DNA from: an uncultured Eubacteriales bacterium
Lineage (GTDB): Bacteria > Bacillota > Clostridia > Oscillospirales > Oscillospiraceae
DNA length: 21,271 nucleotides
Assembly: GCA_900554705.1 (NCBI GenBank)
Contig: USIH01000021.1
Coordinates: forward strand, 1 to 21,271
Direction of reading: 5' to 3'
The notes beneath the pieces are model-generated. The model was given only the letters and a program-made list of their open reading frames with translations, ran no database searches and had not been told where the DNA came from. This document shows positions 3,559-18,743 of the stretch, piece by piece (the stretch's first letter is position 1; every line of letters begins with the position of its first letter). A program made the position numbers and the translations under genes.

Positions 3559-4941
3559 ATGTCAATTCGTAAACGTCTGGACAGCTATCTTGTTGCCGGA
3601 AAGCACGTGCATCTGGTCGGTATCGGCGGCGTTTCCATGCGCCCGCTGGGTCTGGTGCTGCGCGGAATGGGAATGATCGTCACGGGATCGGATATGAACT
3701 CCTCCGTTTCCACCGACGAGCTGATCGCCAAGGGCATTACCGTTCATATCGGCCACAGTGCCGAAAACATCGAGGGCGCAGATTGCATCATCCGCACCGC
3801 CGCCGCGCATAACGACAATCCCGAGATCGCCGCCGCGCGCGCCATGGGCATTCCCGTTTTCGAGCGCGCGCAGGCATGGGGCGTCCTGATGCGCGAATAC
3901 AAGAACGCCATCTGCATCGCCGGCACGCACGGCAAAACGACCACGACCTCCATGGTGACGCACATTTTCATGGAGGCGCAGCGCGACCCCACGGTCATGC
4001 TCGGCGGCTATCTCCCGCTGCTGCACGCCGGTCATCGGGTTGGAAACGGCGACACCATCATCATGGAAAGCTGCGAATACTGCGACTCTTTCCTGAACTT
4101 CTACCCCACCGTCGCCGTGATCAACAACATTGAGGCGGATCATCTGGACTATTTTAAGGATCTTGCAGCCGTCGAGCGCTCCTTCCGCAAATTTGCCGGT
4201 CTGGTGCCGCGCACGGGCTATGTCATCGCAAACGGCGACGACGAGAACACCGTGCAGACGCTCGCCGACCTGCACTATGTCTCCTTCGGCCTGCGCAAAG
4301 AAAACGACGTGCATCCGGAGAACCTCTCGGAGGACTTCACCTCTTTTGACCTTGTCTGCTTCGGAAAGAAGATCTGCCATATCCGGCTGAGCGTTTACGG
4401 GCGGCACAATGTGTTTAACGCCCTTGCCGCCTCCGCCGCCGCCTACGTCATGGGCGTCGAGGGCGAGCACATCAGCGCGGGGCTTGCCTCCTTCACGGGC
4501 GCCGGCCGCCGCATGGAATACAAGGGCGAGGTCAACGGCGCAAAGCTCTATGACGACTATGCGCACCACCCCGGCGAGCTGCACGCGCTGATCGACACGG
4601 TCAAGCAGATGGGCTTCCGCCGCGTGATCGTCGCCTTCCAGCCGCACACCTACACGCGCACCAAGGCGCTGTTTCAGGATTTCGTAAACGAGCTGTGCCG
4701 CGTGGACGTCGCCGTGCTGGCAGAGATCTACGCCGCGCGCGAAAGCAACAAAATCGGTATTTCTTCGCGCGATCTTGCGCAAAATATCCCCGGGGCGGTC
4801 TACTTTGAGACCTTGCCGGAGGTCGCCGCCTATCTCAAGTCCATTGCCCAAGCGGGCGATATTATTCTGACGGTAGGCGCGGGCGACATTTATAAGGCCG
4901 GAGACCTGCTGCTCAAAAAAATAAGCGGGAGGCTTCTATGA
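3559..4941 (+). CDS. murC: UDP-N-acetylmuramate--L-alanine ligase
   Basis: Adds L-alanine to UDP-MurNAc, the first step of peptidoglycan stem-peptide assembly, in the cytoplasm with ATP. The 460-residue length is normal. Visible are the N-terminal Rossmann motif H-L-V-G-I-G-G-V-S-M (18-27), the Mur ligase ATP loop AGTHGKTTTT at 121-130, E-S-C-E-Y-C-D-S-F near 170-178, N-N-I-E-A-D-H-L-D-Y near 189-198, and D-D-Y-A-H-H-P-G in the C-terminal part. These fit MurC better than Mpl, MurD or MurF, and the H-H-P motif is typical of MurC. CGGAGG lies 9 bases before the ATG. The stop overlaps the next start (ATGA, 4938-4941), so translation of the dehydrogenase is probably coupled. No other cell-wall or division gene is adjacent, so murC sits outside the usual dcw cluster here. 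Confidence 0.95.
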   Translation: MSIRKRLDSYLVAGKHVHLVGIGGVSMRPLGLVLRGMGMIVTGSDMNSSVSTDELIAKGITVHIGHSAENIEGADCIIRTAAAHNDNPEIAAARAMGIPVFERAQAWGVLMREYKNAICIAGTHGKTTTTSMVTHIFMEAQRDPTVMLGGYLPLLHAGHRVGNGDTIIMESCEYCDSFLNFYPTVAVINNIEADHLDYFKDLAAVERSFRKFAGLVPRTGYVIANGDDENTVQTLADLHYVSFGLRKENDVHPENLSEDFTSFDLVCFGKKICHIRLSVYGRHNVFNALAASAAAYVMGVEGEHISAGLASFTGAGRRMEYKGEVNGAKLYDDYAHHPGELHALIDTVKQMGFRRVIVAFQPHTYTRTKALFQDFVNELCRVDVAVLAEIYAARESNKIGISSRDLAQNIPGAVYFETLPEVAAYLKSIAQAGDIILTVGAGDIYKAGDLLLKKISGRLL

Positions 4942-5969
4942 GGATCGCGTTTTTTGATACGAAAAGTTATGATGTTCCCTGTTTTGAGGCCGTCGGGAAG
5001 GCGCGCGGCATCACCTTCAAATTCTTCGAAGCCAAGCTCACCGAGGACACGGCGGAATTGGCGCGCGGTTTTGACGGCGTGTGCGTCTTTGTCAACGACA
5101 CGGTAAACGCCGCCGTCATCGACCGGCTCTGCGCACAGGGCGTTCGGCTGCTTGCGCTGCGCTGCGCAGGCTTTAACAACGTCGATGTGCGCCACTGCTT
5201 TGGAAGGCTGCACGTCGTCCGCGTTCCGGCCTACTCGCCCTACGCCGTCGCGGAGCACGCCATGGCGATGCTCCTGACCATCGACCGGCGGACGCACAAG
5301 GCCTATATCCGCACGCGCGACTTTAATTTCCGGCTGGACGGGCTGGTCGGCTTTGACCTGCACGGAAAGACCGTCGGCGTCGTGGGCACGGGTAAGATCG
5401 GCCGTGTGTTCATCGACATCTGCCGCGGCTTTGGCATGAAGGTCATTGCCTACGACAAATACCCGCTTTCTGACAGCGGCATCACCTATGTTTCCCTGCC
5501 GGAGCTGCTTGCGCAGAGCGACGTGATCTCGCTGCACTGCCCGCTGACGGAGGAGACGCACCACATGATCGGATGTGACGCCATTGCCGCGATGAAGACG
5601 GGTGTCGTGCTCATCAACACCTCGCGCGGCGCGCTGATCGACGCGGAGGCGCTGCTGGACGGGATCAAGGCGCACAAGATCGGTGCGGCCTGTCTGGACG
5701 TCTACGAAGAGGAGTCCGACTTCTTCTTTGAAGACTTCTCCGACCATATCATGCGCGACGACCGCTTGGCGCGGCTGATCTCCATGCCGAACGTCCTTGT
5801 CACCTCTCATCAGGCTTTTTTAACACACGAGGCGCTTTCGAACATCGCCGCCACCACGGCAGAGAACATTCTCTCCTTCTTTTCCGAAGGGGTCTGCGAA
5901 AATGAGCTATGCTATCGCTGCGGAAAAGTCGAATCCTGCGACAGACAGCACCCACGCAAGTGCTTCTAA
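4938..5969 (+). CDS. D-lactate dehydrogenase (2-hydroxyacid dehydrogenase family)
   Basis: Reduces pyruvate to D-lactate with NADH, a fermentation step that regenerates NAD+. The 343 residues carry the D-2-hydroxyacid dehydrogenase layout: R-C-A-G-F-N-N-V-D near 75-83, the NAD-binding GTGKIG at 150-155 with D173 (Y-D-K-Y) favouring NADH, and the catalytic set R230 (N-T-S-R-G), E259 (D-V-Y-E-E-E) and H291 (S-H-Q-A-F-L-T). The D-V-Y-E-x-E and HQAFLT motifs are those of fermentative LdhA-type enzymes. The first base overlaps murC (ATGA). The odd part is the C-terminus: after the usual end near residue 325 comes a Cys-rich tail with cysteines at 320, 325, 328, 334 and 342. A VanH-like role in making D-lactate for peptidoglycan is possible given the murC linkage, but no D-Ala-D-Lac ligase is seen, so fermentation is the safer call. 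Confidence 0.88.
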   Translation: MRIAFFDTKSYDVPCFEAVGKARGITFKFFEAKLTEDTAELARGFDGVCVFVNDTVNAAVIDRLCAQGVRLLALRCAGFNNVDVRHCFGRLHVVRVPAYSPYAVAEHAMAMLLTIDRRTHKAYIRTRDFNFRLDGLVGFDLHGKTVGVVGTGKIGRVFIDICRGFGMKVIAYDKYPLSDSGITYVSLPELLAQSDVISLHCPLTEETHHMIGCDAIAAMKTGVVLINTSRGALIDAEALLDGIKAHKIGAACLDVYEEESDFFFEDFSDHIMRDDRLARLISMPNVLVTSHQAFLTHEALSNIAATTAENILSFFSEGVCENELCYRCGKVESCDRQHPRKCF

Positions 5970-6680: not shown

Positions 6681-9600
6681 TTATTCCTGAGATTCCTGCG
6701 GTGTGCGCAGCTTGTCGTAGCGCATGATCATCGTTGCGACTTCCGCACGGGTCGCGTTATTGAGCGGGTTGATCTGGCCGTTATCGCCCTGAATGAGCTT
6801 CGCGGCGACCGCCCACGCCATTGCTTCCTTGGCATAGGAAGAAACGCGGCCGGCATCCTTAAAGTCCTTCGTGATGTCGGCGCGATCCTTCGAGGCAAAG
6901 CCGCTGGCGTCGGCATAACGGAAGAGGATGGTAACGATCTGCTCGCGCGTGATCTTCGCCTCGGGCGCAAAGTGCGTCTCGTCAATACCGTTGACGATCT
7001 TGTTCTTATAAGCCCAGTTGACGGCTGCCGCGTACCAGCATCCGTCGGGAACGTCCGCAAATACCGTGCTGGACGTATCCTCAAAGTTGGGAGAACCGAC
7101 CAGGCGCCACAGGACGGAGACCAGCTCCGCACGGGTCATGGAGGCATTCGGGTCGAAGATCATCTCATTGCGGCCGTTGAAGAGGCCGTGATGGACAACA
7201 TAGTCCACCGTGGGCGCGAACCAGTCGGTGTCCTTCACATCGACAAAGGTCAGATCATAGATCGTCATTCTGCCGCATCTGGAGCAGATATAGTAGACGC
7301 TGCCGTCTTCGTTGGTCTTCGGCACGTTGATATGCGCGCCCGCGCGGCTGAGTTCGACGGTCTTCGTCTCGCCGCACTCGCACTTGACGGTCTTCTTGCC
7401 CTGCACGCCGCAAGTCGTCACGGTGTTCTCGGTGACGGTGACCTTATGCTCCTCGCCCGTCTTGGCGTCGAAGTGGTAAAGATCCTCGCCGATGGTGAAC
7501 CAGCCGGTCTTATACTTGCCTGCAAGGAAGTACATCCGCTTGCCGCTCTTGGAATCCTTTGCCCAGCCGGTGTAGTCCGCGGGGGCTTCCTTCTGGGTGC
7601 AATCGGTCTCGGTGCAGGTCAGCTTACCGGTCGTGCGGTCGTAGATATAGTCGTGCTTCTCGGGGGTGGGATCGGGATCCGTCTTCCGCTTTTCCTTCGA
7701 GACGGAGTCTATCACGGTGCCGTCGACATTGTAGGCGGTGACGGTCATCTTGCCGTCGTTCAGCTCGACCATCAGGTAGACCGCGTCGTAGTTCTGCGTG
7801 ATCTTCGCAAAGTGGAAATCGGGGTTATCCTCGGGCTTGTACTGGGAGCTGCGAGACTTCTCGCCGAGGTCGCCGCAGATGAAGTACACAACACCGTTCT
7901 GCTCATTCACCTCACCGTTCAGGATGGGGCTTGTGCGGGCATAGGAATGGTCATGGCCGGAGAACACGAAGTCAATGCCAGCCTGCTCCGCCGCAGCGGG
8001 GATCGCCTTGTTATACGGCGCGCTGGAGCCCTTCGGGTTGGTGTAGTAAGGCGGCTGATGGAGCGTCAGGATCTTCCATGTGCAGTCGCTCTTAGCAGCA
8101 TCTTCGACCAGCCACTTCGCGGCGGATGCAATATCGGCATTGCAGTTGATAACCGCGACGTAGACATCGCCGTACTGCACGGAATAGTAATCCTTATCGG
8201 GGAGATTGAAGATCGCGGCAGCCTTGTCGCCGGTCATATCGCCGTAGTACTCATGATTGCCGAGCACCTGAATGATCGGGGTGGTCGGGTACTGCGCGGC
8301 AAAGAGACCTTGGATCTGGTTCCACGCGCCCAGACTGTTGGCAACGTCAATATAGTCGCCGGTCTGGATGCCGAAGTCAACGCCCTTCTGCGCGATCGCT
8401 GCGGCGATCGCTTCCATGTAGGCGATCGACTCGGCGTCGGAGGCGGGGTTGTTGCTCAGCTGCGTGTCGCCCATGACGAAGAAAGACGTCTTGCCCGACT
8501 CCTTGGCCGTGGTGAAGGTGGAGACCTCGGAGAAGTGGCCTTCGATGCCGTCGCCGACACGGTAGCAGTAGGTCGTGCCTGCCTGCAGGCCGGAGAGCGT
8601 AACGGTGTTGAGCAGGGTGGCGTTGTTGTCGTCGCCGCTGCCGTTAAAGGCGATGAGCTTGCTCGTTCCGGTGACGGTGGTAAACTCGTAGGTGCCGGAC
8701 TGGTAGGCCGCCTGCGTCGTAAACTGGACGACGGCCTTCTGCGCGGTATACTCGGCCGCGCTGAACCACGTGAGGCTCTGCGTCGTGGTCGCGTCCTTGC
8801 CCGCGTTGAGGCGGACGTTGATGGGCGTGACCTCGTTGCTGCCGATGCCGTTGGTGACGCCGGAGACGCGGAAGGAATAGCCGCTCTCGCCCTTGGCGTA
8901 GATGACAAACTTCTCGCCCGCCGTGCGGCAGAAGCGGTTCGTTACCAGAACGCCGCCGTTGTTCGTGGTGCCGACCAGTTCGTCCTCCTCGCCTTCCTTC
9001 ACGGCATAGACGCTGACCTTACCCGCGCTCTTGCCGTCTGCGGTCGTGACGTAGATCTTGCCGGTCGAGCCGGCCACCATGATGTCAGCGGAGAGCGCAT
9101 AGGGCGCGGTCACGCCGACGGTCGCGGTGCTCTGGGCGAAGGTGAGCGAATTTTCGCCGTCCTCGAAGGTTCCCTTCTCGACGGTGTAGGACATGACGGT
9201 GCCCTTGGCAATGGAGGGAGCCAGCGTGAAGACGATCTTCGCGGCAGCGCCCGCCTTGGGTGCGTCGGTTGTCGCCTGAACGGTCAGGATGCCGCTTTCA
9301 TAGGCGCTTGTTCCGGTGTAGCCGTCCGTAAACTCGACCGTCGGCGCACCGAAGGTCTCGGTCAGCTTGATCTGTGCCTCAAGGGACTTGACCTGATCGG
9401 AGTTTTCCACCGCCAGCGTGAGGGCATAGGTGGTGCCGATCGTCGCGGTCGCTTCGCCGGTCAGCGTGATCTTGCCGAGCTTGCTCTGCGCGGCATTGAC
9501 GGTGAAGTAGCGCGTGACCTTGGTGACGTTACCGAACTTATCGGCGACGGAGATCATAACGCTGTGCTCGCCGTTCGGGAGCGTGACGGTGACGGAAGCA

Positions 9601-12170
9601 TTCGTCGCGGTCGCGGTGGGCAGCTCCTGATGCAGGCCGTCCACGTAGATCGCGGTCTTCTCGGCATGGATGCCGGTGGCATTATCGCCGTCGGGATCGG
9701 TAAAGGCAGCGGCCAGCGTGATCTTGCTGTCGGTCAGAACGCTGGAGCCGTCCTCCTTCAGCTCCGTGCCGTTGGCGGTCAGAGAGCTGACGACGGGGTT
9801 GTCCATATCGTCGACGGTGTCGCCGTAGACGACGCGGAAGTTATCAAAGTAGATGCTGCCCTTGGCAAAGTCGCCCATCGGGATCTTATCGCCGTTTTCG
9901 TTCGCGGAGCCGCCGGGGATGAAGGTCATCAGGATCAGCGGACGTCCGGTGATGAGCTTGAGCGGATGCTCGGGCGTGACATACTGTGCAAGGCCGCTCA
10001 GGTCTGCCTCGCAGTACATCCAGCCGTCCCAGTAAATGCCGTTATACTGAATGCTGCGGCCCTCCTGCGTGGTAAAGTGGAGGTAAGCGTCCTTGTAAAG
10101 GCCGCTCGCCTCATCCCAGTAGGCGACGGTCGTCCAGAGCCAATAGTTCGGCGTGCCTTCCGGCGCATAGACCCAAACGCCCAAACCGGAGGGGGTGCCG
10201 TCGATGGCATAGCCGGAGTTGACGTCGGTGGTCACGTCGTCGGCGAGCTTGGCGTTGCGGATGTACAGATTCACGTTTCTGTAGCCGGGCGCAAGGTCGG
10301 TGTAGTCATATTTCAGCTCCATCGCGTGGTCGCCGAAACGAACCTGACCGTTGTCTGCGGTCACATTATTCAAAAGGGCGGAATGCTGCTTCATATAGCC
10401 GGTGTGCCACGTGAAGAAGCTGTAGCCTCTCGCTCCGAGCAAGGTGGAGGCGGGATGATAGGTCGCATCGTTCGGGCCGTCCAGATAAGAGCCGTCGAAG
10501 GTGAACGGGCCGGACTCGTTCTTCGTGATCAGTGCATTCGCGGCAGCGTCCCAACCGAGGTAGGTGATCGGGTCGGTATCTTCCGGCCACGTCGCGCCGT
10601 AGCTGCTGTTGCCCCAGTCGTACTCGCCGTATTTCAGAACGTTGCCGTTCTCATCCGGTTCGAAGTCAAAGATGACCTGCGGCATCCTGCCGATCTCAAC
10701 AAAAATGGTGTCGGACAGAACCGTTCCGTCCGTTCTGGTATAGGAGACCTCAACGGTCGCCTGTAGCGTCTCGGCCGCCTTGACCGCCGTGAACGTATTG
10801 CCGGAGAAAGAGCCGATCTGCTCGGGCGTCTTGCCTTCGGAAACGGGGGTGAGCTTCCAGTTGAAGGTAAAGCCGCTCAGCTCCATCAGACGGTTCTGGC
10901 AATAAACGCGCAGGCCAAGATCGGAGCTTGCCTTGAAAGCAAGGTTGATGGAATTGGAGGCAAAGGAGAGCGCGTCCGGCTCCTGCACCTCGATGCTGGT
11001 CGCGCCGACGGTGTCGCCTCGCCACAGCAGCTCGACTTCGACGGTGCCGCACTTGCCGTTAGAACGGAAGAGGCCGGAGGCGTCGATGGTGCCGAAGCTC
11101 GCGTCCTTCAGCTTCCAGGTGAGGCTCTCGGGCAGAGCAACGGGATAGCCCGTACCGTCAACGCCGTTTGCGGTAAACTGCACCGACGAACCCGCAACAA
11201 ACAGTTCGTTATTGGGCTTGAGCGCGGCATGGTCAAATTTGCCTGTGCTCTTCTCGGTCTTGACGAACAGCAGCGTAGAAGCGACGACGCGCTCTGGGCC
11301 GTCGGAGGGATGGTTCTGAATTTCCAGCCGCTCGCTGCCTTCGTGGCGGGAGCTGAAGGTAGCAGAACCGCCGCCGTCAAGGTAAATTGCGTTGACGACG
11401 CCCTGCGCCTTCTGGATCTTTGCGATCTCATAGACCGTCATACCAGCGGAAAGTCCCGCACGGCCGTCTGCCATAAAGACGACCAGCGTGCCGTCTTCCT
11501 TCAGACCGATGGAGTGGCGCGGTGCAAGCGTCGGATCGGTATCCGCAACCATGATCTCGCCGTTTTTGACCAGCCAGAACGGGCCGGAGATCGCCTCGGC
11601 GACATCATCGTGCGGCGTGCCATAGTCGCGGATGACATAGCTGCCGTCCTTCAGAACCGCGAAATACGGCTCCTGCTCAACACCGGTCTGCACAACGTTG
11701 CCTTCCATAATGAGGTAGCCAAGCGACTGGCAGGTCTGCATATTATAATAGTCGCCGTTGACCGCCAGAGCGACCTGCTCACCGGTCGCCTTCTCGTAGT
11801 CGGCCGCCTGACCGGTCGTGGTGCGAAGATCCCACTTCAGGCTCTTCGCGGCCTCGGCACGGCTCGTGACGGTGCTACCCTCGGTGTAATATCCTGCATA
11901 GGATGCCTTCGGCTTCACGGAGGCGTTCGGTGCGATCGTCGCCATGTAGCCATACACCTGTGCGGTGCCCTCGGAGTTATTTAGAATTACCTGCGTCTCC
12001 TTTACGCCTTTTGCGATGGTGTAGTCCGTCTCGGCGACGATGACTCTGCCATCGGGCTTCTGAAAGCCACGTGTTTCGCCCTGTGCCGATACAAAAGTCG
12101 GGCACAGCGCCGCGATCATCGCCGCCATGAGCAGCAGACAGATGATACGCCGGGTGAACGTGTGTTTCAT
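6681..12170 (-). CDS. Secreted SLH protein: phosphodiester glycosidase fused to purple-acid-phosphatase-like metallophosphoesterase
   Basis: The 1829-residue surface protein has two hydrolase domains. Order: signal peptide 1-29 (R-R then a hydrophobic run, ending V-S-A-Q); phosphodiester glycosidase (NAGPA family) about 60-305 with V-N-G-D-Y-Y at 137-142 and L-D-G-G-G-S-A at 264-270; two Ig-like regions 315-495; a jelly-roll CBM-like region 499-785 rich in W, Y and D; an Ig-like domain 790-893; a cohesin-like domain 897-1022; an FnIII-like purple acid phosphatase N-domain about 1115-1222; a metallophosphoesterase 1227-1475 with G-D-T-Q (1234), G-D-Y-I-D (1271), G-N-H-E-Y-Y-G-D (1304), L-H-Q-P-P-Y-Y (1370) and G-H-D-H-S-Y (1405); a cell-wall-binding-like motif near 1535-1570; paired cysteines near 1597-1632; and three SLH repeats 1641-1822. 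The SLH repeats should tether it to secondary wall polymer. The start at ATG 12170 follows GGAGG by 8 bases; a longer open frame upstream lacks a signal peptide and overlaps the leader. Substrates are unknown. Confidence 0.88.
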   Translation of the reverse strand: MKHTFTRRIICLLLMAAMIAALCPTFVSAQGETRGFQKPDGRVIVAETDYTIAKGVKETQVILNNSEGTAQVYGYMATIAPNASVKPKASYAGYYTEGSTVTSRAEAAKSLKWDLRTTTGQAADYEKATGEQVALAVNGDYYNMQTCQSLGYLIMEGNVVQTGVEQEPYFAVLKDGSYVIRDYGTPHDDVAEAISGPFWLVKNGEIMVADTDPTLAPRHSIGLKEDGTLVVFMADGRAGLSAGMTVYEIAKIQKAQGVVNAIYLDGGGSATFSSRHEGSERLEIQNHPSDGPERVVASTLLFVKTEKSTGKFDHAALKPNNELFVAGSSVQFTANGVDGTGYPVALPESLTWKLKDASFGTIDASGLFRSNGKCGTVEVELLWRGDTVGATSIEVQEPDALSFASNSINLAFKASSDLGLRVYCQNRLMELSGFTFNWKLTPVSEGKTPEQIGSFSGNTFTAVKAAETLQATVEVSYTRTDGTVLSDTIFVEIGRMPQVIFDFEPDENGNVLKYGEYDWGNSSYGATWPEDTDPITYLGWDAAANALITKNESGPFTFDGSYLDGPNDATYHPASTLLGARGYSFFTWHTGYMKQHSALLNNVTADNGQVRFGDHAMELKYDYTDLAPGYRNVNLYIRNAKLADDVTTDVNSGYAIDGTPSGLGVWVYAPEGTPNYWLWTTVAYWDEASGLYKDAYLHFTTQEGRSIQYNGIYWDGWMYCEADLSGLAQYVTPEHPLKLITGRPLILMTFIPGGSANENGDKIPMGDFAKGSIYFDNFRVVYGDTVDDMDNPVVSSLTANGTELKEDGSSVLTDSKITLAAAFTDPDGDNATGIHAEKTAIYVDGLHQELPTATATNASVTVTLPNGEHSVMISVADKFGNVTKVTRYFTVNAAQSKLGKITLTGEATATIGTTYALTLAVENSDQVKSLEAQIKLTETFGAPTVEFTDGYTGTSAYESGILTVQATTDAPKAGAAAKIVFTLAPSIAKGTVMSYTVEKGTFEDGENSLTFAQSTATVGVTAPYALSADIMVAGSTGKIYVTTADGKSAGKVSVYAVKEGEEDELVGTTNNGGVLVTNRFCRTAGEKFVIYAKGESGYSFRVSGVTNGIGSNEVTPINVRLNAGKDATTTQSLTWFSAAEYTAQKAVVQFTTQAAYQSGTYEFTTVTGTSKLIAFNGSGDDNNATLLNTVTLSGLQAGTTYCYRVGDGIEGHFSEVSTFTTAKESGKTSFFVMGDTQLSNNPASDAESIAYMEAIAAAIAQKGVDFGIQTGDYIDVANSLGAWNQIQGLFAAQYPTTPIIQVLGNHEYYGDMTGDKAAAIFNLPDKDYYSVQYGDVYVAVINCNADIASAAKWLVEDAAKSDCTWKILTLHQPPYYTNPKGSSAPYNKAIPAAAEQAGIDFVFSGHDHSYARTSPILNGEVNEQNGVVYFICGDLGEKSRSSQYKPEDNPDFHFAKITQNYDAVYLMVELNDGKMTVTAYNVDGTVIDSVSKEKRKTDPDPTPEKHDYIYDRTTGKLTCTETDCTQKEAPADYTGWAKDSKSGKRMYFLAGKYKTGWFTIGEDLYHFDAKTGEEHKVTVTENTVTTCGVQGKKTVKCECGETKTVELSRAGAHINVPKTNEDGSVYYICSRCGRMTIYDLTFVDVKDTDWFAPTVDYVVHHGLFNGRNEMIFDPNASMTRAELVSVLWRLVGSPNFEDTSSTVFADVPDGCWYAAAVNWAYKNKIVNGIDETHFAPEAKITREQIVTILFRYADASGFASKDRADITKDFKDAGRVSSYAKEAMAWAVAAKLIQGDNGQINPLNNATRAEVATMIMRYDKLRTPQESQE

Positions 12171-12260
12171 CTTTTTTCCTCCAGAAAAAACAAATTTTTG
12201 GTTCTGCCGGCATGCTAAAAATTGTAACATATTTCCAACGCAGCCGGCATTCACACCCCT

Positions 12261-12289
12261 ATTATTGCATTAATCCGCATGAAAGTCAA
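12261..12289 (-). promoter_or_regulatory. Promoter of the large SLH phosphatase gene
   Basis: On the minus strand, TTGACT (12289-12284), 17 bases, then AATAAT (12266-12261), each 5 of 6 to consensus. This gives a leader of about 85 bases before the ATG at 12170. The 8-base GCCGGCAT occurs twice in this leader (12206-12213 and 12243-12250). Confidence 0.6.
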
Positions 12290-12327
12290 GACTAACGCTA
12301 AAATGTGTGCAATCTGCCAAAAGGTAC

Positions 12328-12356
12328 TTGCGAAAAAAGTCAAAAACTGATATACT
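12328..12356 (+). promoter_or_regulatory. Promoter of the cotH-exporter operon
   Basis: TTGCGA (12328-12333), 17 bases, then TATACT (12351-12356). It is divergent from the phosphatase promoter, with 38 bases between the two -35 boxes (12290-12327). A 6-base-pair hairpin (AAGGTG 12363-12368 with CACCTT 12375-12380) would sit at the very 5' end of the transcript. Confidence 0.6.
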
Positions 12357-12391
12357 TTCTGGAAGGTGTTCCGGCACCTTAAAAACGCAGC

Positions 12392-12398
12392 AAAGGAG
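12392..12398 (+). promoter_or_regulatory. Ribosome site AAAGGAG with ambiguous start choice
   Basis: AAAGGAG is the only good ribosome site before the CotH gene. It is 4 bases before an in-frame TTG (12403), 6 bases before an out-of-frame GTG (12405) and 28 bases before the in-frame ATG (12427) that begins the signal peptide. The GTG would open a 36-codon frame ending at 12515, overlapping the CotH start. Confidence 0.5.
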
Positions 12399-12426
12399 TG
12401 AATTGTGCCTTCGGGCGCATTTGCAC

Positions 12427-14712
12427 ATGAAAAAACAGCTTCGATGGATGCTCTCCATGCTGCTTGTGCTGAGTCTCAGCCTTGGGCTGATGACCGGCCT
12501 TGTCAGCGCGGATGAAAAACTGGAATTTCAGGCCGTCTGGTCCTCCGGCGACGCCTCGCTGGAAAACGCACGCTCCAACGTCAAGACCATCGGCGGCGTC
12601 AATTATCTCTTCCTCTCCGCCTCGGAGGAGCCGACCGCCGCACACATCTACTTCCGCCTCAGCGACGCTTCGGCGATGACGGCGGTGCGCGGCGCGGTCT
12701 CCGCCTGCGGCATCGGCAGCGGTGAGCCGGTCGATCTCAAGGAGATCTGCGGCGAGGGCGACACCTATCCGATCACGCTGCTGGCGCAGTCCGGCGACCA
12801 AACCTGCGAATATGCCGTGACGGTCGTGCCGACGACAGGCGTCGCAAGCCTGTATCTCGTCAGCGACGATCCGGTGAACAAGGGCAGAGCTTGGGTGGAA
12901 TCCAGCCCGACGAAGTCCAACAAGGCCACCGGCGCCATGGTGCTTGTCAATCCGGACGGCTCGGTCGTCCATGAGGGAAAGCTCAAGCAGATCAAGGGGC
13001 GCGGCAACTCCACATGGCAAAACGACAAAAAGCCCTACCAGATCAAATTGGAGCAGAAGGCCGACCTGCTCGAAACGGGCGAAAAGGCCAACGCTTCGAG
13101 GACATGGGTGCTGCTGACCAACGCGGCCGACCCCACGATGCTGCGAAACAACATCGTCTATGATCTGTCCGTCGCGCTGGGCATGATGGGCGCGATCCAG
13201 TGCCGTCCGGTCAGCCTGTTCTACGACGGCGAATACCGCGGCGCTTACCTGCTGTGCGAAAAGGTCGAGATCGGCAAGGGACGCGTGAACATCACCGACA
13301 TGGAAGACCTCAACGAGGAGGCAAACCCGGGCGTCGATCTGGAAAGCCTTCCCATCGAGAAGGGTACGACGGAAAACGGCGCGACCTACACCTACTGCAA
13401 GGGCATGAACTCCCCGTCCGACATCACGGGCGGATACCTGCTGGAGATGGACTCGGCGGTGCGCGCGCAGGCGGAGCTTTGCTACATCACGACGAGCCGC
13501 AACAACTACGTCGTGGTAAAGAGTCCGGAGTGCGCAAGCAAGGAGGAAATGGACTACATCGCCTCCTACTATCAGGACTTTGAAGACGCCGTTTATGCGC
13601 AGGGCGTCAACAACCGCACCGGAAAGAAGACGTCGGACTACGCCGACATCGAGAGCTTTGCAACGAACTATCTGGTAAACGAGCTGACCAAAAATCCGGA
13701 CGGTTTCCGCACCTCCAACTTCATGTATAAGGACAAGGGCGAAGACGCAAAGCTGGTGGCAAATCCCGTCTGGGACTACGACCTGAGCTTCGGCATCTCT
13801 TGGGGTCCTTATGTGGATAACTGCGCGCAGCCGGACGGCTTCTTCACGCTCTACGGTAACTTCGCGCAGGCAATGTACAACGACGGCGCGTTCCGCCAGA
13901 GCGTGCACGACGTCTACCTCGGCAGGATCTCCCCGCTTGTCAAGGCGATGCTCTCCGGCGAGAGCGTCGACCCCGCTATGAGCGCCTTTGAGGCCTATCG
14001 TCAGGAGCTTTCCGCCTCCGCGCGCGCCAACAGCATCGTCTGGGGCGCGGTGGACTGGGGCGGGAATGTGAACGCGCTGCGCAGCTATATCACCACCCGC
14101 GATGCTTGGCTGACGGAAAACTACGCAAGCTGGAACAAGGACAGCAAGGAAGACCTGATCGTCTTCTACGATGTGCCGCAGAACGTCTGGTACTACGAAA
14201 GCGTGATGAGCGCCGCGCGCTACGGCCTGCTGCAAGGCGTCGGCTTCGGCATCTTCGAGCCGCTGGGCAACACGACCCGCGCGCAGACCGCGCAGGTGCT
14301 CATGCGCCTGTCCGGCGATGAGCGCGTGGCCTACAGCCGCGTCTTCTCCGACGTAGACAATGGCGAGTGGTTCGCGCCGGCCGTCATGTGGGCATATAAA
14401 AAGAACGTGGTCAACGGCTATGACGACGGCACCTTCCGTCCGAACGAGCCGATCACGCGGCAGGACGTCGTCGTGCTGCTCTACCGCTACCTCGGTTCGC
14501 CCGCCGTGCAGGGCACGAGCAATCTTGGCCGCATGAAGGACAGCTGGAGTGTCTCCAATTACGCAAGAAACGCCGTGGAATGGTCGATCGAAAACAAGGT
14601 GATCGTCGGCTATGAGGACGGCACCTTCCGCCCGTTTAACAACATCACCCGCGCCGAGCTTGCGGCGATCATCACGCGCTTCTACGAGGCTTTTATCGCG
14701 GACAGGGAGTGA
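12427..14712 (+). CDS. CotH-kinase family surface protein with three SLH repeats
   Basis: The 761-residue protein has a signal peptide (1-28, K-K-Q-L-R then a hydrophobic run to V-S-A), an N-terminal beta-rich region to about 140, a CotH kinase domain at 140-560 and three SLH repeats at 580-757. CotH motifs seen: K-G-R-G-N-S-T-W at 190-197, K-K-P-Y-Q-I-K-L at 201-208 (the conserved Lys region), R-G-A-Y-L-L-C-E-K-V at 271-280, G-G-Y-L-L-E-M-D at 335-342 and W-D-Y-D-L-S-F-G at 449-456 (metal and catalytic Asp region). Spore CotH is an atypical protein kinase that phosphorylates coat proteins; this homologue is exported and wall-tethered instead. The start is uncertain: ATG 12427 gives a clean signal peptide but lacks a close ribosome site, while TTG 12403 would add eight residues. 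The exporter gene follows after 4 bases. Kinase activity outside the cell, where ATP is scarce, is not shown by the sequence. Confidence 0.88.
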   Translation: MKKQLRWMLSMLLVLSLSLGLMTGLVSADEKLEFQAVWSSGDASLENARSNVKTIGGVNYLFLSASEEPTAAHIYFRLSDASAMTAVRGAVSACGIGSGEPVDLKEICGEGDTYPITLLAQSGDQTCEYAVTVVPTTGVASLYLVSDDPVNKGRAWVESSPTKSNKATGAMVLVNPDGSVVHEGKLKQIKGRGNSTWQNDKKPYQIKLEQKADLLETGEKANASRTWVLLTNAADPTMLRNNIVYDLSVALGMMGAIQCRPVSLFYDGEYRGAYLLCEKVEIGKGRVNITDMEDLNEEANPGVDLESLPIEKGTTENGATYTYCKGMNSPSDITGGYLLEMDSAVRAQAELCYITTSRNNYVVVKSPECASKEEMDYIASYYQDFEDAVYAQGVNNRTGKKTSDYADIESFATNYLVNELTKNPDGFRTSNFMYKDKGEDAKLVANPVWDYDLSFGISWGPYVDNCAQPDGFFTLYGNFAQAMYNDGAFRQSVHDVYLGRISPLVKAMLSGESVDPAMSAFEAYRQELSASARANSIVWGAVDWGGNVNALRSYITTRDAWLTENYASWNKDSKEDLIVFYDVPQNVWYYESVMSAARYGLLQGVGFGIFEPLGNTTRAQTAQVLMRLSGDERVAYSRVFSDVDNGEWFAPAVMWAYKKNVVNGYDDGTFRPNEPITRQDVVVLLYRYLGSPAVQGTSNLGRMKDSWSVSNYARNAVEWSIENKVIVGYEDGTFRPFNNITRAELAAIITRFYEAFIADRE

Positions 14713-14716
14713 CCGG

Positions 14717-15496
14717 ATGGAAACAGTGACCCTGCCGATCGAGCAGGCGGACACCGTTTTGTGCGCCGCGCTGGATGTCGGTGAGCATATTTTGAAAAGC
14801 GGCGGCGAGATCCACCGCGTCGAGGACACCATCGAGCGCATTTGCGCTGCCTACGGCGCGCAGCACGTGGAGGTCTTCACCATCCCGTCGCTCATCGTCG
14901 CCTCCGTGCAGATGCGCGACGGCGTGCGTTCCCAGCAAATGCGGCGCATCTACGAAACGAAGAACAATATGTATATGGTCGAGGCGCTCAATGAGATCTC
15001 GCGCGAGCTTTGCACCGGCGCGCTGCCGCTGTCAAAGCTGCGGGCGCGGATCGTCGAGGCAAAGTCGCGCCGCCCCTACCCCTTCTGGCTTGTCTGCTTG
15101 GGGGCTATGTGCGCCGCTGCGGGGTTCGTCTTCTTCTTCGGCGGCAACCTGCTTGACAGCCTCTGCGCCGCCGCAGCCGGCTGCGCGGTGACGATCTTCC
15201 AGCGCTATGCGCCGCGCTTTGTCAATCGCATGATCGTCATGGTGCTCGCTTCCCTGCTGGCCGGTCTGGTCGGTCTCGGCCTGACGCGGCTCGGACTTGG
15301 GCAGCATCCGGACAAGATCATGATCGGCACCATTATGATCCTCGTGCCCGGGGTGGCGCTGAACAACGCCGTGCGCGACATGATGGGCGGCGACGTGATC
15401 TCCGGCGCGCTCCAGCTCATCCAGTCGGTGCTGCTTGCCGTCATGATCGCCTTCGGCTTCGCCATTGCGATCTACATCATGGGAGGCGCAGTATGA
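14717..15496 (+). CDS. Threonine/serine exporter ThrE, N-terminal half (YjjP-like)
   Basis: The 259-residue protein is the first half of a two-gene ThrE-type transporter (DUF1212/YjjP family). Residues 1-118 are soluble and carry S-G-G-E-I-H-R-V-E-D-T-I at 28-39 and V-F-T-I-P-S at 53-58, both family hallmarks. Then come about five membrane helices from 122 to 255, with L-V-P-G-V-A-L-N-N-A-V-R-D at 209-221, a conserved motif. In Corynebacterium the single ThrE exports Thr and Ser; in E. coli YjjP with YjjB has been linked to succinate export, so the substrate is open. The start at ATG 14717 follows GGGAG (14705-14709) by 7 bases; that ribosome site lies inside the last codons of the CotH gene, pointing to coupled expression. 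Its stop overlaps the next start (ATGA, 15493-15496). Confidence 0.9.
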   Translation: METVTLPIEQADTVLCAALDVGEHILKSGGEIHRVEDTIERICAAYGAQHVEVFTIPSLIVASVQMRDGVRSQQMRRIYETKNNMYMVEALNEISRELCTGALPLSKLRARIVEAKSRRPYPFWLVCLGAMCAAAGFVFFFGGNLLDSLCAAAAGCAVTIFQRYAPRFVNRMIVMVLASLLAGLVGLGLTRLGLGQHPDKIMIGTIMILVPGVALNNAVRDMMGGDVISGALQLIQSVLLAVMIAFGFAIAIYIMGGAV

Positions 15497-15924
15497 AAGA
15501 GTTTCTCGTCCCCCTGCTCAGCGCACTGTTCGGAACGCTCGGCTTTGCCATTCTCTTCGGCGTTCGCCCGCGCCACCTTGTCTACACGGCGCTCTGCGGC
15601 GGCGTAACGTGGGTGATCTACCTGCTGTGCGCCCCCGTCGGCAGCTTTTTCGCCAACACGATCGCGGCCTTCTGCATGACCATGTACTGCGAGGTCGCCG
15701 CGCGGCTGCGCAAAGCGCCGGTCGTCACCTTTCTGACGCCTGCCATCGTTGTCCTCGTGCCGGGCGGCTCGCTCTACTACACCATCGCGAACATTCTCTC
15801 AAACAACTACGCAGCGGCGGGTGACTACGGTCTGAAGACACTGGATGCCTGCCTCGGCATCAGCGCGGGCATTCTGCTTGCCTCGCTCTGCGTGCGGCTG
15901 TTTTACCGAAACAAAGCAAAATAA
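15493..15924 (+). CDS. Threonine/serine exporter ThrE, C-terminal half (YjjB-like)
   Basis: The 143-residue, highly hydrophobic protein matches the second half of ThrE (DUF3815/YjjB family): about four to five helices, with P-A-I-V-V-L-V-P-G-G-S-L-Y-Y-T around 82-96 as the diagnostic motif. It mirrors the V-P-G motif of the partner protein and is expected to form the transporter with it. The 4-base overlap with the upstream gene supports a stable pair made in equal amounts. It ends the cotH-exporter operon and is followed directly by a terminator. Substrate as for the partner: Thr/Ser or a small dicarboxylate, not decidable here. Confidence 0.9.
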   Translation: MKEFLVPLLSALFGTLGFAILFGVRPRHLVYTALCGGVTWVIYLLCAPVGSFFANTIAAFCMTMYCEVAARLRKAPVVTFLTPAIVVLVPGGSLYYTIANILSNNYAAAGDYGLKTLDACLGISAGILLASLCVRLFYRNKAK

Positions 15925-15926
15925 GA

Positions 15927-15963
15927 AGCAGCGCCGCCTCCTTTGGGAGGCAGCGCTGCTTTT
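15927..15963. terminator. Bidirectional terminator between exporter and adenosine deaminase
   Basis: AGCAGCGC-C-GCCTCC (15927-15941), loop TTTG, GGAGGC-A-GCGCTGCT (15946-15960): a 15-base stem with one C/A mismatch, followed by TTTT on the plus strand. On the minus strand it is followed by a T-rich stretch (TTCTTATTTT), so it can also serve the convergent gene. Confidence 0.85.
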
Positions 15964-15967
15964 ACAA

Positions 15968-16942
15968 TCAAAGTTTTTCCAACAGCGCGGGCTTCTCTGC
16001 CTCCGGCAGGAACGCGCCGCCGATGGCGTTTCTGTCCATCAGCCGGAAGTCTTCGTCACTGAAATGGAACGCGTTGAAGAGTACTTCGTGCTCACGCTTG
16101 AGGGTCGTATTGGAGCAGGTCATGTTGTCGGTGTTCACCGTGACGGCAAGGCCGCGGTGGAAGAATTCCGCGATCGGATGCTGCTCGGGGCGGGCAACGA
16201 TCTTCGTGTGCAGGTTGCTGACGGGGCAGGTCTCGATCACGATGCGCTCGCGCCGGAGAAGCTCCATGCAAGCCTCGCTGCGGATGGCGCCGCAGCCGTG
16301 TCCCACGCGGCGCGCACCAAGCTCGACCGCCTTGCGGACATTTTCCGCGTTGCCGCGCTCGCCCGCATGCAGCGTGAAGGGGATCTGCTCGCGGTAGGCC
16401 TCGCGGAAGATGGGCGCGTAGTCCTCGATCGGATAAACGTCTTCTGCACCCGCAAGGTCGACGCCCACGACACCCTGTCCCGCAAAGTCGGCGGCCAGCG
16501 GCACGATCTGCTCGTTGGTCTGCCGGTCGCTGCCCAGCATCGCGCACAGCAGGACGCCCGCGCGAATGGACGGATTGGCCTCCTGCGCCTGCCGCACGCC
16601 GCGCAGAACGCTGCGCACCACCTCGCTCTGCGTCATGCCCTGACGGGTGTGCAGCTGCGGAGCAAAGCGGATCTCGGCATAGACCAGTCCCTGCCGCGCC
16701 AGACGGCCGACCAGCTCAAAGGCGCTGTATTCCAGCGCGTAGGGTGTTTGCAGCACGCGCGTGGGCAGCTCGAAGCGCTTTAAGTACTCGACAAGATCGG
16801 TGCAGTTTTCCGGAACGTAGATCGCATCGCAGATCTCCTGCATGGTCATCGGAAATCCGCCGCGCTGCGCCAATTCAAAAACGACCTGCTCCGACAGCGA
16901 TCCGTCCAGATGCAGATGCAGGTCGACCTTTCCCTGATACAT
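15968..16942 (-). CDS. add: Adenosine deaminase
   Basis: Deaminates adenosine (and deoxyadenosine) to inosine in purine salvage, a cytoplasmic Zn enzyme. The 324-residue protein shows the full active-site set: H9 and H11 in D-L-H-L-H-L-D-G-S, H192 and E195 in H-A-G-E, H215 in V-G-H-G, E-T-C-P-V-S-N near 237-243, and D272 in N-T-D-N. The last motif has Asn where many family members have a second Asp (N-T-D-D); the N-T-D-N form is common in Gram-positive and actinobacterial relatives, so I do not read it as inactive. The start at ATG 16942 is chosen for the GGAGGAG site just upstream and because the N-terminus then begins right before the metal motif; an open frame reaching to 17011 runs through the promoter. 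It is a single-gene unit with its own promoter and a shared terminator. Confidence 0.92.
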   Translation of the reverse strand: MYQGKVDLHLHLDGSLSEQVVFELAQRGGFPMTMQEICDAIYVPENCTDLVEYLKRFELPTRVLQTPYALEYSAFELVGRLARQGLVYAEIRFAPQLHTRQGMTQSEVVRSVLRGVRQAQEANPSIRAGVLLCAMLGSDRQTNEQIVPLAADFAGQGVVGVDLAGAEDVYPIEDYAPIFREAYREQIPFTLHAGERGNAENVRKAVELGARRVGHGCGAIRSEACMELLRRERIVIETCPVSNLHTKIVARPEQHPIAEFFHRGLAVTVNTDNMTCSNTTLKREHEVLFNAFHFSDEDFRLMDRNAIGGAFLPEAEKPALLEKL

Positions 16943-16975
16943 AAGTTCTCCTCCCATGGTATCCTTTTTCCTATC

Positions 16976-17004
16976 ATTATACACCATAAAGCAACGCTTT
17001 TCCA
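16976..17004 (-). promoter_or_regulatory. Promoter of add
   Basis: On the minus strand, TGGAAA (17004-16999), 17 bases, then a perfect TATAAT (16981-16976), about 34 bases upstream of the ATG at 16942. Confidence 0.6.
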
Positions 17005-17053
17005 GTCCCAAATTTACATTTTTACCAAAGCGAAAAAATGCGGCCGGAGGGTC

Positions 17054-17082
17054 TTGACAAACGACCCGCGCTGTGGTTTAAT
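17054..17082 (+). promoter_or_regulatory. Promoter of the T-box leader and trpB2
   Basis: A perfect TTGACA (17054-17059), 17 bases, then TTTAAT (17077-17082). Transcription should begin near 17089, just before the T-box stem I. Confidence 0.75.
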
Positions 17083-17088
17083 ACGGTA

Positions 17089-17344
17089 AACCGTTGAAGG
17101 CGCGTAAGTAAGCGTTTTGCGAAAATCACAGAGAGCCGCCGTTGGTGGGAGTGCGGTATGGACGCGGATGCCGAATGGGCGCCTGAGGGCAAGCTGAAGC
17201 AAGTAGGCAAGACGGAGCCGACCCTTCGTTAACAAGGTCAGCGTATGCAGGTACGCATGAGCGGGCGCGCAAGCGCCAAGCCGGGTGGCACCGCAGGAAG
17301 ATTTTATTCCTGTCCCAGCAATTTTTCTGGGACAGGATTTTTTT
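17089..17344 (+). ncRNA. T-box riboswitch (tRNA-Trp sensing) upstream of trpB2
   Basis: The leader senses uncharged tRNA and lets transcription continue when the amino acid is short. Base of stem I: GGCGC (17099-17103) pairs with GCGCC (17179-17183). The distal loop has the AGAGAGCC...GTTGGTG pattern (17130-17147). The likely specifier is TGG (Trp) at 17176-17178 in context GAA-TGG-G. A GCAA-capped hairpin lies at 17264-17277. The T-box GGGTGGCACCGC is at 17283-17294; its TGGC (17286-17289) would pair with a tRNA ending G-CCA, which fits tRNA-Trp (discriminator G). The antiterminator can pair GGG (17283-17285) with CCC (17314-17316) and CAGGAA (17294-17299) with TTCCTG (17307-17312), which competes with the terminator arm. 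Confidence 0.92.
17308..17344 (+). terminator. T-box-controlled terminator
   Basis: Perfect 11-base arms TCCTGTCCCAG (17308-17318) and CTGGGACAGGA (17327-17337), followed by seven T. The left arm is shared with the antiterminator, so the two folds exclude each other. Confidence 0.93.
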
Positions 17345-17381
17345 ATCCTTTCCCGACCCATTTTTGAAAGGAGCAAGAACC

Positions 17382-18743
17382 ATGGAAATCCCCTACAAGA
17401 TCTATCTGGAAGAATCGGAGCTGCCGCGCGCATGGTACAACGTCCGCGCCGACATGAAAACGAAGCCCGCACCCCTGCTCAATCCCGCGACGCACGAGCC
17501 GATGACGCTCGACGAGCTTTCCGGCGTTTTTTGCCGCGAGCTTGCGCAGCAGGAGCTGGACTGCGACACACCCTATCTCCCGATCCCGCAGGAAATTCGG
17601 GACTTTTACCGGATGTATCGCCCGTCGCCGCTGGTGCGCGCCTACTGTCTGGAAAAGAAGCTCAACACCCCCGCGCACATTTACTACAAATTTGAGGGCA
17701 ACAACACCTCCGGCAGCCACAAGCTCAACTCCGCCATCGCGCAGGCCTACTATGCCAAGAAGCAGGGGCTGCGCGGCGTGACCACCGAGACCGGCGCCGG
17801 TCAGTGGGGCACCGCGCTTTCCATGGCGTGCGCCTACTTCGATCTGGACTGCCGCGTCTATATGGTCAAGGTCTCCTATGAGCAGAAGCCCTTCCGCCGC
17901 GAGGTCATGCGCACCTATGGCGCAAGCGTGACACCCTCTCCCTCCGACACGACGCAGGTCGGCCGCCAGATCTTGGAGCGCTTCCCGAACACGAACGGCT
18001 CGCTCGGCTGCGCGATCTCGGAGGCGGTCGAGACGGCAACAAAGCTCGACGGCTATCGCTACGTTCTCGGCAGCGTCCTGTCTCAGGTTCTGCTGCATCA
18101 GTCGGTCATCGGTCTGGAATGCAAGACCGCGATGGACAAATACGGCATCCGTCCCGACATCGTGATCGGCTGCGCGGGCGGCGGCTCCAATTTAGGCGGT
18201 CTGATCGCGCCCTTCGTCGGGCAGAAGCTGCGCGGCGAAGCGGATATGCGCATCATCGCGGTCGAGCCTGCCTCCTGCCCCTCGATGACACGCGGCGTCT
18301 ATGCCTACGACTTCTGCGACACCGGCATGGTCTGCCCGCTGCAAAAGATGTACACGCTGGGCAGCAGCTTCATTCCCTCCCCCAACCATGCGGGCGGCCT
18401 GCGCTACCACGGCATGAGCGGCATCATCTCGCAGCTCTATGCCGACGGCTATCTGGAGGCGACGAGCGTCGAGCAGACGGCGGTCTTTGCCGCTGCGGAG
18501 GAATTTGCACGTTCGGAGGGCATTCTGCCCGCGCCGGAGAGCAGTCACGCCATCAAGGTCGCCATCGACGAGGCGATCCGCTGCCGCGAAACGGGCGAAG
18601 CGAAAAACATTCTCTTCGGCCTGACCGGCACGGGCTACTTTGACCTCTATGCCTACAAGAACTTCAATGACGGCACGATGACCGACAGCATTCCGACCGA
18701 CGAGGACATCGCAAAGAGCCTCGCCAAGCTGCCTAAGTTCTAA
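17382..18743 (+). CDS. trpB2: Tryptophan synthase beta chain, TrpB2 type (stand-alone)
   Basis: Condenses indole with L-serine to L-tryptophan, using pyridoxal phosphate. The 453 residues exceed the roughly 400 of classical TrpB1 and fit TrpB2. Key residues: PLP lysine K114 in S-G-S-H-K-L-N; catalytic E136 in E-T-G-A-G-Q-W-G, where Trp in place of the His of TrpB1 marks the TrpB2 group; phosphate-binding G-G-G-S-N at 266-270. The N-terminus has the TrpB2-type A-W-Y-N region near 17-20. No trpA or other trp gene lies next to it, and it is a single-gene unit under a Trp-type T-box. This suggests salvage of free indole rather than channelling from TrpA. The start at ATG 17382 follows AAAGGAG by 8 bases. 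Some TrpB-like proteins have other beta-replacement roles, but the Trp codon in the leader argues for tryptophan. Confidence 0.93.
   Translation: MEIPYKIYLEESELPRAWYNVRADMKTKPAPLLNPATHEPMTLDELSGVFCRELAQQELDCDTPYLPIPQEIRDFYRMYRPSPLVRAYCLEKKLNTPAHIYYKFEGNNTSGSHKLNSAIAQAYYAKKQGLRGVTTETGAGQWGTALSMACAYFDLDCRVYMVKVSYEQKPFRREVMRTYGASVTPSPSDTTQVGRQILERFPNTNGSLGCAISEAVETATKLDGYRYVLGSVLSQVLLHQSVIGLECKTAMDKYGIRPDIVIGCAGGGSNLGGLIAPFVGQKLRGEADMRIIAVEPASCPSMTRGVYAYDFCDTGMVCPLQKMYTLGSSFIPSPNHAGGLRYHGMSGIISQLYADGYLEATSVEQTAVFAAAEEFARSEGILPAPESSHAIKVAIDEAIRCRETGEAKNILFGLTGTGYFDLYAYKNFNDGTMTDSIPTDEDIAKSLAKLPKF

Follow-up and report, generated by a model that had tools for sequence, protein, structure and literature searches.

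Here we describe a divergent gene pair on a 21,271-bp stretch of DNA from an uncultured Eubacteriales bacterium (contig USIH01000021.1 of assembly GCA_900554705.1), which was analyzed at its full length and is referred to as the window. The genes encode two large secreted proteins: P1, which contains a phosphodiester glycosidase (NAGPA) domain and a calcineurin-like phosphoesterase domain, and P2, which contains a CotH kinase domain. On balance, we lean towards the view that P1 and P2 form one functional module, whose task is to process phosphate on the outer surface of the bacterium itself. Sequence comparisons give good support to the predicted functional coupling between the kinase and the hydrolases. 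Because linkage and fusion of the corresponding parts recur in relatives, P1 and P2 are expected to act together, and parts that stand side by side or within one chain suggest joint working.

Domain architecture of P1 and P2

Open reading frames (ORFs) and Pfam bear out the original prediction that the two secreted proteins lie on opposite strands and that each carries a signal peptide and three surface-layer homology (SLH) repeats. Both show the combination found in SLH-anchored wall proteins, with the signal peptides judged by eye from the sequence.

P2 (761 aa) is encoded on the plus strand at 12427..14712, starting from the ATG at 12427 (a TTG at 12403 is an alternative start). It consists of a signal peptide (MKKQLRWMLSML...LVSA; 12427..12510), an N-terminal immunoglobulin (Ig)-like domain (12511..12834), the CotH kinase domain (12838..14136), and the SLH repeats (14161..14694, Pfam). 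The match to CotH (PF08757) has an E-value of 8.7e-32 and scores 111.3 bits, against a curated cut-off of 23.8, and both motifs named in the original prediction, KKPYQIKL and WDYDLSFG, are present. The domain has a kinase fold, and its catalytic residues are intact (K241, K247, E318, D465, W489, and D490 in an 801-residue numbering). D465 and D490 are the likely counterparts of D228 and D251, the two essential aspartates of Bacillus subtilis CotH, as judged from the 23-residue motif spacing in structure 5jd9 and the residue numbers given in the available excerpt of PMC7821199. CotH-like kinase domains of about 30% identity were also found in phages (for example, in the mycobacteriophage record MK524516, 36608-37672). 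Matches occur in 36 of 50,697 phage records, 22 of them mycobacteriophages; some of the 20 matches listed are annotated as hypothetical protein, kinase, or minor tail protein.

P1 (1829 aa) is encoded on the minus strand at 6681..12170, with its ATG at 12170, as delineated by ORF and domain scans and by the homologues P0121 and P0122. Its signal peptide (MKHTFTRR, a hydrophobic core, and VSAQ; 12081..12170) is followed by the NAGPA domain (PF09992; 11265..11777), which was detected with an E-value of 7.7e-33 and 114.5 bits (cut-off 25), and whose core can be aligned by phmmer to the solved NAGPA structure 6pki (E 4.7e-15). The middle of the protein, between the NAGPA domain and a fibronectin type III (FN3)-like domain of the purple acid phosphatase (PAP) type, is long and beta-rich. 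It contains a lectin-like or carbohydrate-binding-module-like beta-sandwich region (9819..10691), with weak likeness to parts of glycan-degrading enzymes, and a cohesin-like module (9105..9485), which resembles modules of the Clostridium perfringens GH33 and GH84 glycosidases. The PAP-type domain (Pur_ac_phosph_N, PF16656, E 7.9e-13; 8508..8825) precedes the calcineurin-like metallophosphoesterase domain (PF00149, E 6.3e-14; 7941..8483) and the SLH repeats (6699..7250, Pfam). All five metal motifs of the phosphoesterase were found (GDTQ, GDYID, GNHEYYG, LHQPPYY, and GHDHSYAR). The phosphodiester glycosidase domain and the complete motif set proposed earlier are both present.

The original prediction had further called the phosphatase purple-acid-phosphatase-like. 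This holds for the PAP-type N-terminal domain of the calcineurin-like phosphoesterase, and residues 1198-1471 of P1 (in a 1857-residue reading) match purple acid phosphatase 6gja (E 9.9e-12). We take the GDxxY motif with its charge-transfer tyrosine to be the mark of true purple acid phosphatases, and this label was rejected for P1 because the tyrosine is missing: the window has GDYID, and the consensus of a 32-sequence alignment is GDFVD.

Linkage, fusion, and co-divergence in relatives

Homology searches retrieved 2014 P2 homologues at an E-value of 1e-10 or better among 7997 scored candidates, and the best 120 of these all contain CotH and SLH. For P1, 872 homologues were found among 7994 scored candidates; within the best 120, 72 are unfused (71 with NAGPA) and 48 are fused. 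These fusions (P0193-P0240) are single proteins of 2562-2736 aa, which unite CotH, NAGPA, phosphoesterase, fn3, and SLH. One P1 homologue, P0180, is 45% identical and carries the source name Oscillospiraceae. When the CotH part of one fusion was used as query, 1495 matches were obtained, of which the best 120 all contain CotH and phosphoesterase, and 119 also NAGPA. This search is restricted to proteins of 0.55-1.75 times the query length and therefore informs on the length at which such CotHs are built, but not on their frequency.

Unfused genes are linked as well. Among the 120 best homologues of each protein, 15 of the 72 unfused P1 homologues match a P2 homologue in the exact size of their longest contig, which we take to mean the same contig; the number of pairs is at least 15. 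When the sizes were moved up or down by 1 to 100 bases (200 shifts), coincidences averaged 0.3 and never exceeded 2.

At the genome level, P1-like proteins (E 1e-60 or better) were present in 8 of 349 genomes of the family of genome G098 and in 7 of 393 of its order, together nine distinct genomes. Only matches of this strength were used, because in a class-level search, which matched 18 of 391 genomes at 1e-40, 12 of the 18 matched in the SLH region alone. One of the nine, G629, was set aside, as its P1-like gene is cut by a contig end. In three of the eight untruncated genomes, a CotH is linked to the P1-like gene: in G493 and G814, the two genes stand in tandem on the same strand, with 22 and 7 bp between their ORF bounds, and in G098 they are fused. 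The adjacency is therefore not peculiar to this strain, a point on which the original prediction hinged, and it exceeds chance expectation. Within the G098 family, 75 of 247 genomes contain a CotH of whatever kind, which makes chance adjacency unlikely; the probability of two or more linked loci among six is about 0.003, a rough value that assumes 1.5 CotH per 2-Mb genome. A scan of genome contigs yielded one locus, whose match lies in the C-terminal SLH part (residues 580-751) and whose genome lacks CotH; a scan of viral contigs yielded no relative. Relatives closer to the window were found neither in the genera of G493 and G814, nor in the families of G814 (the same as that of G098) and G805, nor in the full G098 family.

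To place the CotH domains, eight unlinked controls taken from 30 CotH loci were used. The controls lie on contigs without a P1-like match and are for the most part CotHs of about 500 aa with high scores, from the G098 family; the set leaves out other long SLH-bearing CotHs without NAGPA, and two controls (L047 and L051) belong to genomes in which a P1-like gene is found on a different contig. In a maximum-likelihood tree built from 58 CotH domains, a 100/99 branch separates the SLH-type (31, made up of the window and 30 of the 120 listed), fused (17, made up of 16 listed fusions and G098), and tandem (2) domains from the eight controls. Rooting and tandem placement are unsure, because long branches meet (fusions with tandem domains and controls), as a program warning indicates; further warnings name CTRL_L060 as a long row and two controls as of odd composition. 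Fused CotHs are clearly nearer to P2 (mean identity 39.4%, 29 rows) than the controls (26.0%, 8 rows).

The catalytic residues were assessed by aligned column in 206 length-filtered domains, comprising all 120 listed SLH-type proteins, 75 of 149 fusions (148 listed P entries and G098), the two tandem proteins, 8 of 15 chosen controls, and the window. All 195 SLH-type and fused domains retain them. The controls keep D465 and D490 in 8/8 cases and K247 in 4/8. Looser regular-expression counts (265/268 for the CotH motif, and several for P1 motifs) can match elsewhere in long proteins and are superseded for CotH by this column count.

CotH and NAGPA distances are also correlated, with r = 0.876 over 18 pairs and 0.569 over the 16 SLH-type pairs, values that none of 5000 permutations reached in either set. 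Fusions were excluded from this test, as was P0097, one of two CotHs on contig 68568. Part of the correlation is shared species history.

Some loci have peculiarities of their own. In G814 (L074), the tandem pair is flanked on both sides by perfect ACAG arrays (8774-8904 and 18366-18508; 32.8 and 35.8 copies). The flanks form a 214-nt direct repeat of 99% identity, and a 181-base flank beside the first array occurs at just these two places in the genome (100% and 87%). This layout resembles a cassette that recombination could delete or relocate. G805 contains two tandem P1-like genes (L075:4359-10385 and 10862-17443; 2008 and 2193 aa) and no CotH in the fetched 20 kb. In G417, a second SLH protein of 485 aa (L067:12306-13763) lies 31 bp upstream of a 2774-aa P1-like protein on the same strand.

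Probable phosphate handling at the cell surface

According to the motifs seen in their sequences, P1 and P2 would be exported and anchored to the wall by their SLH repeats. P2, with its kinase fold and catalytic residues, most likely moves phosphate from a presumed donor onto a hydroxyl of a putative surface acceptor. P1 most likely acts in two steps on phosphate linkages of presumed substrates, surface glycans or glycoproteins: the NAGPA domain is predicted to strip a sugar that caps a phosphodiester, and the calcineurin-like domain, with its motifs, is predicted to take off the exposed phosphomonoester next, if the order is as we suppose. The lectin-like and cohesin-like modules would keep P1 on its glycan target and partners. 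The two proteins may work as opposite arms on one target. More specifically, and only tentatively, the pair might carry out reversible extracellular phosphorylation, in which a wall-anchored CotH would place phosphate on glycans or proteins of the surface, to be uncapped and removed by a wall-anchored NAGPA-phosphoesterase. Some relatives would then carry writer, uncapper, and eraser as one polypeptide, an analogue of the animal route of Fam20 kinase, uncovering enzyme, and phosphatase.

The original prediction had proposed that the pair could add and remove phosphate on S-layer proteins, wall polymers, or host glycoproteins. This is partly supported: fusions, matching contigs, tandem neighbours, and correlated divergence bear out the link between the enzymes, and the CotH domain has a kinase fold with intact catalytic residues. 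The narrower version, a writer and eraser of protein phosphate, fares less well. Several observations weigh against the proposed module, and two of them, the tandem CotHs and the CotH-less loci, also against a simple writer/eraser. Extracellular ATP is normally scarce. The residue two positions after the WD aspartate (D492 in P2) is Glu, not Asp, in 75 of 75 fused domains. The CotHs of both tandem pairs (L062:5374-8433 and L074:14889-17987) have Ile at the equivalent of the catalytic D465 and should therefore be inactive or work differently; they still keep K241, K247, E318, W489, and D490, and are predicted from these residues to represent a pseudokinase branch. Moreover, they are hardly closer to P2 (28.4%, two rows) than the unlinked controls. 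The divergent order was seen in no relative: the resolved linked loci are tandem or fused, and the contig coincidence gives no orientation. Finally, five of the eight untruncated genomes (G417, G430, G459, G472, and G805) have no CotH within the fetched 17.5-20 kb around the P1-like gene.

Two of these CotH-less loci bear on a possible, if doubtful, alternative, that the main chemistry is wall-polymer remodelling by P1. Here P1 would trim a teichoic-acid-like or other sugar-phosphate polymer, freeing phosphate or sugar, with no protein writer/eraser cycle, and CotH would assist by priming or marking the polymer, as a glycan kinase like Fam20B, or would merely bind. At both loci, which likewise count against the protein cycle, the P1 relative ends a same-strand gene run with an ABC exporter. 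The exporter ATPase has its best matches among models for teichoic-acid export, at scores below their cut-offs. In G430 (L065), the exporter pair immediately precedes the P1-like gene, and a Glyphos_transf/TarB-like gene is located 4.3 kb upstream of it; in G472 (L063), two TupA-like genes immediately precede the P1-like gene, and the exporter pair is located 5 kb upstream of it. The tandem CotHs without catalytic Asp also fit this alternative, as does ShfP, a surface calcineurin-like phosphoesterase that yields extracellular glycerol, presumed to come from lipoteichoic acid (PMC11488536, in excerpt). However, the catalytic residues are conserved throughout the SLH-type and fused domains, polymer genes accompany only two of the five CotH-less loci, and none was recognized beside the pair among the scanned window ORFs. 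The exporter permease of G472 best matches the capsule model KpsM (weakly), so that the polymer need not be teichoic.

It is improbable that host or dietary glycoproteins are the targets, with the pair removing caps and phosphate from their glycans to allow binding or feeding. The likeness of the cohesin-like module to those of C. perfringens GH33 and GH84 and the weak likeness of the lectin-like region to parts of glycan-degrading enzymes would agree with this, but a kinase fits poorly with glycan feeding, and no sugar transporter or secreted glycosidase was recognized beside the pair among the window ORFs scanned. That two unrelated surface proteins merely share a surface-gene region is very improbable and already disfavoured: SLH proteins are common and P1 often lacks a linked CotH, yet the fusions, matching contigs, clade structure, correlated divergence, and low chance of linkage all speak against it.

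For a joint phosphate-handling module, the conserved partner, often a covalent fusion, would narrow the search for the substrate of surface CotHs to phosphate carried by glycans or proteins of the cell surface. The matched pairs, triple fusions, and predicted pseudokinase form provide material for tests of surface CotH function.

Genomic context and comparison with known systems

P1 (minus) and P2 (plus) diverge from a common intergenic region. The GTG starts of the ORF list were replaced by the inner ATGs at 12170 and 12427, because these fit the homologues: P0121 is 1829 aa long, and P0122 starts with MKHTF, at the same Met as P1. The coding regions therefore lie 256 bp apart. Promoter-like sites, which are consensus matches only, are found for P1 (TTGACT-17-AATAAT; 12261..12289, minus) and P2 (TTGCGA-17-TATACT; 12328..12356, plus). 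The back-to-back promoters 38 bp apart of the original prediction hold in the sense that the putative -35 boxes, at 12289 (minus) and 12328 (plus), are separated by this distance. The 601-bp region contains three promoter-like sites, against 0.6 expected from shuffles. Between the promoters, no operator-like inverted repeat was compact enough, the three repeats found having arms 137-168 nt apart.

Searches of the window for Rfam families (at gathering scores), tRNAs, and tandem repeats gave no match. The other scanned genes seem unrelated to the pair and encode a pseudouridine synthase, a Mur ligase, a D-2-hydroxyacid dehydrogenase, an adenosine deaminase, a ThrE-type exporter (two genes), a TrpB-like enzyme, a 4-alpha-glucanotransferase, and a LacI-type regulator. 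ORF 379-2757 presumably encodes a copper ATPase, and the label VanH was not accepted for 4938-5969, which scores 243 bits (cut-off 540). The two genes of the ThrE-type threonine/serine exporter (PF06738 and PF12821; 14612-15924) follow P2 on the same strand; their listed start overlaps the end of P2, and the true start is probably further in.

Among known systems, P2 shares the kinase fold and two essential aspartates with the spore-coat kinases of B. subtilis (CotH) and Bacillus cereus (5jd9 and 5jda), but differs by its signal peptide and SLH anchor, which would attach it to the outside of the wall, and by its extra Ig-like domain. Published work connects CotH with the spore coats of bacteria and with fungi, and for Pel loci it only proposes a role (PMC7821199, PMC9973265, and PMC7112168, in excerpt). 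Gene groups of CotH, polyphosphate polymerase, and DUF4956 at these loci place CotH in a surface-polymer setting in non-spore-formers; unlike for P1 and P2, the available part of PMC7112168 names neither an NAGPA nor a phosphoesterase as partner. Among the open-licence papers searched, titles and abstract openings gave no description of a CotH partnership or triple fusion, and in the accessible part of PMC12484212, CotH kinase occurs in the reference list only. The Fam20 secretory-pathway kinases (Fam20B, a xylose kinase, and Fam20C, a protein kinase) are distant in sequence and would offer an analogy of working, not family membership.

P1 shares its catalytic-domain family and the DGGGSAT core with the mannose-6-phosphate uncovering enzyme NAGPA (6pki), but joins the glycosidase to a phosphoesterase in one chain; purple acid phosphatase 6gja, although matched in sequence, is set apart by the tyrosine that P1 lacks. 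A close parallel by description is ShfP of B. subtilis (PMC11488536, in excerpt), since both are secreted and combine a PAP-type FN3 domain with a calcineurin-like domain and its five motifs, and P1 also has adhesion domains as in ShfP-like proteins. The same excerpts describe ShfP-family fusions with SLH, cell-wall-binding, and NAGPA domains, and the word CotH is absent from the main text of that paper. Each part of the pair is already known, and the architecture of P1 is covered by the ShfP work; unlike ShfP, P1 has lectin-like and cohesin-like modules and comes with a CotH kinase, as a separate partner here and as part of the same chain in some relatives.
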